In this document: positions 25,806-55,462 of the stretch, piece by piece
How the letters are laid out: every line of letters begins with the position of its first letter
Position numbering within the stretch: the first letter of the stretch is position 1
Assembly (NCBI RefSeq): GCF_019880245.1
Contig: NZ_CP082286.1
Coordinates: 948,521 to 1,012,520, forward strand
Length of the DNA: 64,000 bases
Direction of reading: 5' to 3'
Source of the DNA: Halobaculum roseum
GTDB taxonomy: Archaea > Halobacteriota > Halobacteria > Halobacteriales > Haloferacaceae
Position numbers and translations under genes: made by a program
The notes under the pieces: generated by a model
Seen by the model: the letters and a program-made list of their open reading frames with translations, nothing else
Told to the model about the DNA's origin: nothing
The model's database searches: none

Positions 25806-25908
25806 CGGTCGCCGCGGCGGCGAGAGTGCTGCGGGCGTCGGCGGTACGTTCGGCGTGCCTCACTGAAGATTCAAGTACGAAAGCGGGACCATCGACGGAC
25901 TGAAACCC

Positions 25909-37426: not shown

Positions 37427-38181
37427 AGGACGCGACGGCCGAGGAGCTGGCGGCGGCGCTCGCGGACGCGCACGCGACCGCCTCGTCCGTCACCCCTGGC
37501 ACGCTCCCGAGCGTCGACTCGACGGCCGACGCCTACCGGGTTCAGGAGCGGCTCGTCGACCGGCTGCGGGACAGGCGAGGGGAGCCGGTCGGCTACAAGA
37601 TCGGCTTCACGAACGAGCGCGTCCGGCGGGACCTGGCGGTCGACGAACCCGGGTACGGCCGGGTGCTCGACGGGACCGTCCGGTCCTCGCCGGCGACCGT
37701 CGGCGCCGGGGAGTTCGTCGATCCGCGGATCGAGCCGGAGATCGCGTTCCGGCTCGGTGCCGACCTCCCGGCCGACGCCTCGCGCGACAGCGCTCGCGAC
37801 GCGGTGGCTGCGGTCGTCCCCGCGATCGAGGTGGTCGACAGCCGGACCGGGTGGGAGTTCGACGCGCCGCTGGCGGTGGCGGACAACTGCCTCGACGCGG
37901 GACTCGTTCTCGGCGAGGGAACCGATCCCGCCGGCCTCGCGCTCAGCGAGGAAGCCGTGACGCTCCGCGTCGACGACGACCCGGTCGACTCGGGCGTCGG
38001 CGCCGACGCGCTCGGGCACCCGCTTGCGGCGCTCGCGTGGCTCGCGGACGCGGTCGACGGCCTCCCGGCCGGCACGCTCGTCACGACCGGATCGCTGACG
38101 GAGCCGATCCCCGTCGCCGCCGGGGAGACCGCGATCGCGACGTTCGCGTCGCTCGGGAGCGTCGAGCTCCGGGTTCGGTAA
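37423..38181 (+). CDS. 2-keto-4-pentenoate hydratase-like (FAH superfamily) protein
   Basis: A 252-residue protein of the hydratase/decarboxylase branch of the fumarylacetoacetate hydrolase fold. It shows the N-terminal helix, VGYKIGFTNERVRRDL (family VGyKvG), RIEPEIAFRLG with the metal-binding Glu pair, and VAAVVPAIEVVDSR. Members hydrate 2-oxopent-4-enoate-like acids in aromatic breakdown. It overlaps the creatininase-family gene by four bases (ATGA), so the two are co-translated; no other ring-cleavage genes are near, and the true substrate is unclear. Confidence 0.85.
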   Translation: MKDATAEELAAALADAHATASSVTPGTLPSVDSTADAYRVQERLVDRLRDRRGEPVGYKIGFTNERVRRDLAVDEPGYGRVLDGTVRSSPATVGAGEFVDPRIEPEIAFRLGADLPADASRDSARDAVAAVVPAIEVVDSRTGWEFDAPLAVADNCLDAGLVLGEGTDPAGLALSEEAVTLRVDDDPVDSGVGADALGHPLAALAWLADAVDGLPAGTLVTTGSLTEPIPVAAGETAIATFASLGSVELRVR

Positions 38182-38336
38182 GGCGAACAGGCGACACCCG
38201 CGGTCGGTCCGGGACTCGGGGCGCGCCCCTCCGCCCCGCTGTCCCTCCCGGCGTCCCTCGGACGATCCGGACCTCGTTCCCGTCGCGGCGTGTCGCACAC
38301 CCGCTTCACGCGACGGGGCGGTTCTCAGCGCATGCG
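38182..38336 (-). ncRNA. Candidate structured small RNA, copy A (pseudoknot)
   Basis: It shares with 54644-54724 three exact blocks: GGCGAACAGGCGAC (38182-38195), GTCGCACACCCGC (38292-38304) and GGCGGTTCTCAGCGCATGCG (38317-38336). Stem 1 pairs 38191-38197 with 38290-38296 (GCGACAC/GTGTCGC). Stem 2 pairs 38279-38287 with 38309-38317 (CCCGTCGCG/CGCGACGGG). The stems interleave, as in a pseudoknot. The loop holds a further palindrome, GGGGCGCGCCCC. On the minus strand TTCAAATACC (38354-38363) lies about 25 bases before the conserved GCATGCG, hence the strand choice. It fills the gap between two convergent genes. Confidence 0.5.
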
Positions 38337-38390
38337 GGGGCTGGTGCCGGTTCGGTATTTGAACGCTCGTCTCGACGCCTGACTGATCCG

Positions 38391-39092
38391 CTAATCGACT
38401 TTCGTGCTCACGGCGAGTCCGGAACCGACCGGGAGGACCGTCGTCTCGAAGGCGTCGTCGGCGCGGACGGCGTCGAGGTAGGCGGCGATGCCGCGGGTCT
38501 GCTCGTTCGCGGCGTCGAGCGCGGCCGCGCCGGCGTCGGCGTCGGCGTCGGCGTCGCTGTGGCTTCCGTCGTCACCCTCCACGGCCGCCAGCAACGCGTC
38601 GAAGTCGATCGGGCCGCGCATGATGTTATCCGCAGCGACCACGCCGCCTGGGGCGAGCTTGTCGCGAACGGCGCGGAAGGCGTCCGCGTAGCGCTCCTTC
38701 TGGTGGTCGACGAGGACCACGTCGAAGGGACCGTCGTAGCGTTCGATCGTCTCCATCGCGTCGCCCCCCTCGAAGACGCAGCGGTCCGCGAGCCCCGCGT
38801 CGGCCATAAACTTCCGGCCCTGGTCGAGTTCGTCGGCGTCGAACTCCGTGAGGATCACGCGCTCTGCGCCGCCGCGGAGGAACCACGAGGCGGAGTAGCC
38901 GAACCCGGAGCCGAACTCGAAGACGGTCTCGGCGTCGGTGAGCCGCGCGAGCAGGCGGAGGACGGCGCCCGACTCCGGGCCGATGTTCGGGAAGTCGTGC
39001 TCGTCGGCGAACGCGGCCATCTCCGCCTGTACGTCGGTGTGCTCGGGGCCGGTCGCGCGGACGAACCGGGAGACCTCGTCTGTGAGTACCAT
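38391..39092 (-). CDS. SAM-dependent O-methyltransferase-like protein
   Basis: A 233-residue methyltransferase of the catechol/caffeoyl-CoA O-methyltransferase fold. Motif I is VFEFGSGFGYSASWFL; then VILTEFDADELDQGRKF, FEGGDAMETIERYDGPFDVVLVDHQKERYADAF, and GVVAADNIMRGPIDFDA, where the Asp-Asn pair matches metal ligands of the family. The N-terminal NIGPESGAVLRLLARL also fits. A low-complexity Asp/Ala tract sits near 180-195. GATACAAG about 25 bases before the ATG is the likely promoter box. Confidence 0.87.
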   Translation of the reverse strand: MVLTDEVSRFVRATGPEHTDVQAEMAAFADEHDFPNIGPESGAVLRLLARLTDAETVFEFGSGFGYSASWFLRGGAERVILTEFDADELDQGRKFMADAGLADRCVFEGGDAMETIERYDGPFDVVLVDHQKERYADAFRAVRDKLAPGGVVAADNIMRGPIDFDALLAAVEGDDGSHSDADADADAGAAALDAANEQTRGIAAYLDAVRADDAFETTVLPVGSGLAVSTKVD

Positions 39093-54180: not shown

Positions 54181-54516
54181 CTACCGGAGCGACTCGACCA
54201 CGCGAAGGATGTCCTCCTTCTCCTGCACGCCGACGAGGCGCTCGGCCTCCTCGCCGTCCGCGAAGAACTGGAGTGCGGGGATCCCTCGGACGCCGGCCTC
54301 GCCCGCGAGTCCCTGGAACTCGTCGACGTCGACCTTGAGGACGGTGAGGTTCTCGACCTCCGCGGCGACCTCCTCGATCGTCGGCTCCAGCATCTTGCAT
54401 GGGCCACACCAGTCGGCGTGGTAGTCGACGAGGACGATCCCCTCGCTCGTCAGCTCCGCGAACTGGTCCTCGCTCTCGATGTGGATGGGTTCCTCTGCGG
54501 GGGTTTGGCCACTCAT
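54181..54516 (-). CDS. trxA: Thioredoxin
   Basis: A 111-residue thioredoxin with the active site WCGPC (C37, C40) in VLVDYHADWCGPCKMLEP and the cis-Pro segment GVRGIPALQFF. It reduces protein disulfides in the cytoplasm. GTTATCAC near 54539-54546, about 25-30 bases before the ATG, is its likely promoter box. The candidate small RNA at 54644-54724 lies further upstream on the same strand. Confidence 0.94.
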   Translation of the reverse strand: MSGQTPAEEPIHIESEDQFAELTSEGIVLVDYHADWCGPCKMLEPTIEEVAAEVENLTVLKVDVDEFQGLAGEAGVRGIPALQFFADGEEAERLVGVQEKEDILRVVESLR

Positions 54517-54643
54517 ACCAGTTGGTTGGCGAGTGCGCGTGATAACCGTTCCACACGAATGTCGGCGTCGCGCACGACCGCGAAACCCGTCCGAACGCGA
54601 CCCGTTCCGTCGCCGTCGCTGAGGAGTGAGTTGGGATAGGATG

Positions 54644-54724
54644 GGCGAACAGGCGACTCGCGGCGGCGTCCGTCGGTGAGTCGCACACCCGCGGAGCGAC
54701 GGACGGCGGTTCTCAGCGCATGCG
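54644..54724 (-). ncRNA. Candidate structured small RNA, copy B (pseudoknot)
   Basis: Compact second copy of the element at 38182-38336. Stem 1 pairs 54653-54659 with 54678-54684 (GCGACTC/GAGTCGC). Stem 2 pairs 54667-54675 with 54697-54705 (CGTCCGTCG/CGACGGACG). Two bases separate the inner strands, and 12 bases (ACACCCGCGGAG) separate stem 1 from the last strand, exactly as in copy A. Compared with A, six of nine stem-2 pairs and one of seven stem-1 pairs differ, all with pairing kept. CTTGAAGTAC on the minus strand (54744-54753) is placed as a TATA box. It lies between arfC and trxA. Confidence 0.5.
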
Positions 54725-54748
54725 ACGGCGTGGTCCCGTCACCGTACT

Positions 54749-55462
54749 TCAAGTCTCGTACGAGAGCTGGACGCCATCATCGAGGCGTTCCACGTCCGTC
54801 AGGTCGAGTTCGGGGAAGTCGTCGACGAACCCCTCCCCGTCCGCGAGCGTCGGCGCCCCGCGGCCGCCGATCACGAGCGAGCCGACGTAGACGGTGAGTT
54901 CGTCGACGAGGCCGGCCTCGAACAGCGAGAAGATCACCTCGCCGCCGCCCTCCACCATGACGCGCTCGATCCCCTCGCGTTCGAGCGCGTCGAAGGCGGC
55001 CCGGAGGTCGACGCGGCCGGCGTGGGCGTTCTCGCCGTCCTCGCTTCCGGTGTCGTCGCCATCGCTGCCATCGCCGCCGGCCGAGACGATCTCGGCGCCG
55101 GCGTCGCGGAGGGCGTCCAGGCGGTCGGGGTCGGCCGCGTCGTTCACGAGCAGGTAGGTGGTCGCCTCGTCGTCGAGGATCCGGGCGTCCGTCGGGGTAC
55201 GGGCGCGCGAGTCGGCGACGACGCGGGCTGGATTTCCGGGACGGCCGTCGCGCAGGCGCTGGACGCGGCGGTCCTCCTCGTCGAGGGTGAGGTGCGGGTC
55301 GTCCGCGAGGACCGTTCCGACGCCGACGAGCACGGCGTCCGCGGCCGCGCGGATCCGGTCGACCCGGTCGAAGTCGTCGGCACCGCTGATCTCGACCTGC
55401 TCGCGGCGGCGCGAGGAGAGCTTCCCGTCGACGGAGACGGCGGCGTTGACGTGAACGTACAC
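54749..55462 (-). CDS. arfC: 2,5-diamino-6-ribosylamino-pyrimidinone 5'-phosphate reductase
   Basis: A 237-residue NADPH-dependent reductase of archaeal riboflavin and F420 synthesis (RIB7/RibD C-terminal domain family), reducing the ribose of the pyrimidine intermediate to ribityl. It shows VHVNAAVSVDGKLSS, DAVLVGVGTVLADDPHLT, the substrate-binding P-A-R-V-V-A-D-S stretch, and VMVEGGGEVIFSLFEAGLVDELTVYVGSLVIGG. An acidic low-complexity insert lies near 130-148. It follows the S10-like gene by 25 bases. Confidence 0.92.
   Translation of the reverse strand: MYVHVNAAVSVDGKLSSRRREQVEISGADDFDRVDRIRAAADAVLVGVGTVLADDPHLTLDEEDRRVQRLRDGRPGNPARVVADSRARTPTDARILDDEATTYLLVNDAADPDRLDALRDAGAEIVSAGGDGSDGDDTGSEDGENAHAGRVDLRAAFDALEREGIERVMVEGGGEVIFSLFEAGLVDELTVYVGSLVIGGRGAPTLADGEGFVDDFPELDLTDVERLDDGVQLSYET

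Follow-up and report, generated by a model that had tools for sequence, protein, structure and literature searches.

The bar minigenes of bacteriophage lambda are two-codon open reading frames that work by affecting ribosomes and peptidyl-tRNA, not by way of a protein, and in the readthrough signal of murine leukaemia virus a stop codon is followed by a spacer of about 8 nt and an H-type pseudoknot. The RNA described here shares the start-X-stop two-codon frame of the former and the order of stop codon, spacer and H-type pseudoknot of the latter. It differs from the lambda minigenes, which are leadered and bacterial, lack a conserved pseudoknot, and do not form a dispersed gene family, and from the viral signal in that no conserved frame continues past the stop. 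Spacer and loop lengths in the haloarchaeal RNAs also vary by single nucleotides, the spacer by 1 nt and the loops freely, and no conserved downstream frame was found of the kind that readthrough would use.

In Haloferax volcanii, 72% of the protein transcripts lack a leader (PMC4983044), and abundant small RNAs are occupied by ribosomes while protein is undetectable (PMC12482152); rancRNA_s194 (PMC6104027), sRNA_61 and others (PMC12482152) bind or occupy ribosomes with no protein detected. These RNAs are, like ours, haloarchaeal, intergenic, and about 70-110 nt long (PMC6104027; PMC12482152); their published descriptions mention no pseudoknot or start-stop frame. Haloarchaeal small RNAs are described as scarcely conserved: other haloarchaea lack homologues of 22 of 27 small RNA genes of H. 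volcanii (PMC3956466), and s194 is reported to be conserved only within Haloferax (PMC6104027). The strongly covarying family described here, in contrast, spans an order.

Our starting point was a window of 64,000 nt from Halobaculum roseum (contig NZ_CP082286.1, positions 948,521 to 1,012,520), in which a first-pass annotation had read two intergenic gaps with shared exact blocks as a two-copy small RNA with interleaved stems. Three exact blocks are indeed shared by the gaps (38182/54644, 38292/54680, and 38317/54705) and occur nowhere else in the window. The two stems of each copy lie where that annotation had placed them (its stem 1 is our S2 and its stem 2 our S1), six of the nine S1 pairs differ between copies with all six differences compensated, and the minus-strand TATA-like box that it reported ahead of both copies is present. 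The features are listed below, with scores from two covariance models: R1, built from nine genus copies of the copy B locus, and R2, built from 66 copies.

38182..38333, minus strand: copy A, predicted RNA of ~152 nt, 5' end at 38333 and 3' end near 38182 (R1 57.7 bits, R2 82.6 bits)
38354..38363, minus strand: TATA-like box of copy A, TTCAAATACC, read in the sequence; a box is present in the copies inspected
38342..38350, minus strand: conserved promoter element CGGGACCA of copy A, in the form CCGGCACCA; the pattern occurs 1-23 times per genome, its reversed control 0-3 times
38325..38333, minus strand: mini-ORF ATG CGC TGA of copy A, from the start-stop tally and the sequence
38309..38317, minus strand: 5' arm of stem S1 of copy A, CCCGTCGCG, from covariation
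38279..38287, minus strand: 3' arm of S1 of copy A, CGCGACGGG, from covariation
38290..38296, minus strand: 5' arm of stem S2 of copy A, GCGACAC, within the S1 loop, from covariation
38191..38197, minus strand: 3' arm of S2 of copy A, GTGTCGC, from the sequence and S2 covariation
38296..38304, minus strand: conserved loop GCGGGTGTG of copy A, from alignments
38182..38190, minus strand: conserved 3' tail CTGTTCGCC of copy A, right after which conservation stops
54644..54721, minus strand: copy B, predicted RNA of 78 nt (R1 136.1 bits, copy B being in the R1 training set)
54742..54752, minus strand: TATA-like box of copy B, TTGAAGTACGG, read in the sequence
54731..54738, minus strand: promoter element CGGGACCA of copy B, a conserved pattern read in the sequence
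54713..54721, minus strand: mini-ORF ATG CGC TGA of copy B, from the start-stop tally and the sequence
54697..54705, minus strand: 5' arm of S1 of copy B, CGTCCGTCG, from covariation and the sequence
54667..54675, minus strand: 3' arm of S1 of copy B, CGACGGACG, from covariation and the sequence
54678..54684, minus strand: 5' arm of S2 of copy B, GCGACTC, from covariation and the sequence
54653..54659, minus strand: 3' arm of S2 of copy B, GAGTCGC, from covariation and the sequence
54684..54692, minus strand: conserved loop GCGGGTGTG of copy B, from alignments
54644..54652, minus strand: conserved 3' tail CTGTTCGCC of copy B, right after which conservation stops

Copy A lies between a plus-strand gene ending at 38181 and a minus-strand methyltransferase gene ending near 38391, so its RNA heads for the 3' end of a gene convergent with it; ~80 nt are inserted in the loop that separates the 3' arms of S1 and S2. 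Copy B stands between minus-strand genes for a RibD-like reductase (54749-55462) and a thioredoxin (54181-54516), and among 11 genomes of the genus, the window's own included, 9 have an orthologue in this position. A second genome of the genus has both copies, copy A at the same locus and copy B with a single point change in its tail. Upstream of the thioredoxin gene, at 54567-54578, an element GTCGCGCACGAC with the inverted repeat GTCG-4-CGAC, a possible operator, is recognisable in most genomes of the genus.

The evidence for the fold, an H-type pseudoknot of a 9 bp S1 and a 7 bp S2 whose 5' arm is within the S1 loop, is comparative, as the folding energies of the single window copies are unremarkable (z of -0.10 and +1.24). 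Across 102 aligned copies, standard pairs fill 99.3% of the cells in S1 and 95.8% in S2 (97.8% overall); shuffles reach 73.7%, and shifting the partner by 1-3 columns leaves 23-64%. Covariation scores 0.624, as against 0.163 for shuffles and no more than 0.12 for shifted partners, and 15 of the 16 pairs have changed on both sides, the remaining pair being invariant. An alignment of 66 copies gave the same covariation outcome, and because S2 was left out of the alignment model, its support is not produced by fitting. This excess of standard pairs is far beyond chance, and from sequence comparison we regard both the family and its fold as real with near certainty. Among unpaired stretches, conservation is strongest in the loop GCGGGUGUG and the 3' tail CUGUUCGCC, and it ends straight after the latter. 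We also considered, and rejected, a third helix in which loop GCGGG would pair with tail UUCGC, as it shows no covariation and its 88.1% pairing equals that of shuffles. Complementarity of the loop, tail, and 5' motif to the genome's own 16S and 23S loci was no better than in shuffles, nor do the RNAs generally end in a U-rich terminator: TTTT lies within 50 nt after the tail in 13 of 148 copies vs 3 of 148 in the upstream control.

A search of Rfam 15 gave no match for the window, and none for either copy up to E = 1; among eight further member loci only a flanking tRNA matched, and the earlier statement that no haloarchaeal RNA family of this form is known agrees with this. Archaeal box C/D and H/ACA guide RNAs are also small and stable but fold differently, and by inspection the pseudoknot RNA has no C box, D box, ACA end, or kink-turn arrangement, nor an Rfam match to either; reading the CUGA at the stop codon (see below) as a D box is broken by TAA and TAG variants. 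The evidence thus supports the description of a small structured RNA whose pseudoknot covaries, with a promoter ahead of it on the minus strand and no relative in Rfam.

The "two-copy" part of that description is wrong. An exact search with a conserved 20-mer does return only copies A and B from the genome, and a 19-mer with one mismatch, run against 146 genomes of the order, matched this genome alone; a short degenerate pattern returned at least 96 stretches on genome contigs of unrelated organisms, and copy B had no match among plasmids. Synteny at the thioredoxin gene opened up the family, and the covariance-model search that had been proposed as a check then found many homologues with conserved pairing. 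The following counts are lower bounds, as scoring in the large searches covered the best 13-22 candidates of each genome. With R1, at least 106 of 170 genomes of the host's family match, often at least 10-19 times per genome, and with R2 at least 168 of 293 genomes of the order match, many of them up to the number of candidates scored, representing at least 49 of 87 genera. A phylum-wide sample of 197 genomes yielded matches in at least 16, all from the window's order, with none listed outside it. The window's own genome has about 16 clear R1 matches, apart from promoter-only ones, and at least 20 members once copies found by R2 and by the promoter pattern are added. Three of its loci (L167, L171, and L290) form a subgroup whose members carry an extra insert in the region of the S1 loop and, beyond the 3' side of S1, a segment such as GAGCCGTGAGCGCGTG. 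We therefore appear to be dealing with a large, order-wide small RNA family, with ~20 copies in some genomes, that apparently has not been described before: no family of this form was found in the haloarchaeal small RNA literature searched, subscription journals and supplements being outside that search.

Many dispersed copies are also what remnants of mobile elements, or a miniature transposon, would leave. However, copies diverge strongly outside the loop and tail while their pairs are kept by compensation, copy B holds its place across the genus as given above, and the copies inspected have their own promoter, which makes such an origin extremely improbable. Among the copies viewed, none was a near-identical young copy flanked by target-site duplications. 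There was also no match to a mobile element or a known RNA family, either of which the first-pass annotation had named as grounds for abandoning its reading.

Placement, assessed for 164 copies with a simple codon-usage gene caller, bears on whether the RNA could be a cis-acting leader, such as a riboswitch or attenuator, of a downstream gene. Copy B is upstream of thioredoxin on the same strand, and 57 of the 164 copies have a same-strand gene downstream. These genes begin at varied distances of at least 29 nt, however, rather than directly after the RNA as a leader would have it, and in the other 107 copies, including copy A, the gene that follows is encoded on the other strand, frequently 20-60 nt past the tail. 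No copy overlaps a predicted gene, and divergent upstream genes are at least 74 nt away, leaving room for a promoter. Since most copies face a convergent gene, they are free-standing RNA genes, and we consider a leader function very improbable.

The 5' end of the RNA carries a feature that the first-pass annotation did not mention. In 161 of 164 distinct copies, both window copies included, a start codon (GTG in 139, ATG in 22) is followed by one sense codon (159 copies) or two (2 copies, both in frame) and a stop codon (TGA in 148, TAA in 12, TAG in 1), and the 5' ends that had been expected near 38333 and 54721 fall on the opening base of this start codon. The start codon is regularly placed: in 158 of the 161 copies it lies 30-31 nt from the first base of the TATA box, in 153 its own first base precedes S1 by 16-17 nt, and 7-8 nt separate the stop from the pseudoknot. 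The frame is missing from three copies (L195, L219, and L288), and three copies selected by their promoter (L369, L370, and L386) have no ATG or GTG. Both covariance models were trained on sequences that included the 5' motif, which biases their hits towards it. Among 14 departures from TGA, 13 are other stop codons, and most of the TAA codons and the TAG are in lower-scoring copies, so the pattern is not merely one inherited sequence. We are confident, from these alignments, that a start-X-stop frame is conserved.

The upstream region is equally distinctive. A promoter pattern made of the TATA-like box and CGGGACCA has 23 sites in the window's own genome against 0 for the reversed pattern used as control, and 1-20 per genome against 0-3 in 15 other genomes; about half of the own-genome sites are copies of the pseudoknot RNA. 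In 25 protein genes with this promoter, inspected in detail in this and other genomes, the start codon is 30-34 nt from the TATA box (30-32 in all but one), the same offset as in the RNA, whose 5' end is placed here by TATA spacing. Five sites belong to a second class of apparently structured RNA that has GGACG near the point where the mini-ORF would be, instead of a start codon, so the promoter itself does not require one. Members of this class lie just downstream of their promoter sites (L324, L364, L366, L383, and L384), with GGACG at the start and GTCC further on; L383 and L384 contain long G+C-rich inverted repeats, and the class has no Rfam match.

These observations allow us to weigh an explanation in which the RTG-NNN-stop is never translated and acts purely as a nucleotide motif, recognised by a protein or used in transcription initiation. 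The sense codon is mostly NNC, with CGC, ACC, and ATC dominating, so part of the conservation could be at the nucleotide level, and GTG is a poor leaderless start (PMC4983044). However, the stop can be TGA, TAA, or TAG without loss of stop function, length changes by exactly 3 nt, and protein genes with the same promoter begin at an equal offset. We judge a purely nucleotide-level motif improbable, as the interchange of stops and the 3 nt length changes speak for translation.

We think it somewhat more probable than its alternatives combined that a leaderless two-codon mini-ORF loads a ribosome against the pseudoknot, and that the RNA holds or senses this ribosome and encodes no protein. Its own promoter would give an RNA of ~80-110 nt (longer with loop insertions such as that of copy A) with a 5' end at, or 1-2 bases from, the start codon, where a ribosome would load as on other leaderless haloarchaeal mRNAs. 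The ribosome would make at most one peptide bond before meeting the stop codon, and during this stop the pseudoknot would be at about the mRNA entry of the ribosome. We infer that the RNA regulates ribosome availability or that its own control is ribosome-dependent. The predominance of GTG (86% of starts) may make initiation poor, since in H. volcanii only 6-9% of leaderless transcripts start with GUG and a GUG reporter is very weak, at 2.6% of AUG (PMC4983044).

The same weak start is consistent with a different role, in which the pseudoknot belongs to a structured trans-acting RNA and the stop codon is an insulator, evicting ribosomes so that the pseudoknot stays folded. The 5' start codon would then be incidental, derived from the leaderless genes that the promoter came from, and the conserved loop and tail would do the work by binding a protein or pairing with mRNAs. 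The stop (163 of 164) is at least as conserved as the start (161-162 of 164), and the loop and tail are the most conserved unpaired parts. Against this, the second RNA class uses the same promoter without a start codon, and losing a start should be easier than retaining it along with a stop. We consider the insulator rather unlikely, though by no means negligible. The papers searched report no otherwise non-coding RNA whose conserved 5' end is a leaderless ORF of two codons; if the ribosome-loading mechanism is correct, such an ORF would provide a concrete explanation for haloarchaeal RNAs that are ribosome-occupied and untranslated, and a new regulatory use of leaderless initiation.

The protein genes that share the promoter encode a type II/IV secretion (type IV pilus-like) ATPase, DUF7283, a PLD nuclease, a Cas4-like protein, DUF7382, a TctA family protein, NucS_N with a topoisomerase (Top1) zinc ribbon, and DUF7310, a domain content that suggests a programme of DNA uptake or DNA processing. 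More speculatively, once this promoter is on, the many copies could jointly tie up or mark ribosomes for as long as the co-regulated programme of pilus-like ATPase, nucleases, and DNA-binding proteins runs. Our broadest proposal, which we put forward as a tentative possibility, is that ~20 dispersed leaderless start-X-stop pseudoknot minigenes per genome, co-regulated with a DNA-uptake-like programme, capture ribosomes and reshape translation as a new class of regulatory RNA; if so, the RNA would offer a way into a co-regulated gene set, maybe a DNA-uptake system. The promoter-sharing protein loci (L307, L308, L314, L315, L323, L328, L362, L367, L374-L382, L387, L388, and L395-L401) include gene sets that recur across several genera. 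In the window itself, the same promoter pattern also occurs at 25870-25891 on the plus strand, 39 nt before the GTG of a frame that, named from its sequence alone, is a DinG/XPD-like helicase.
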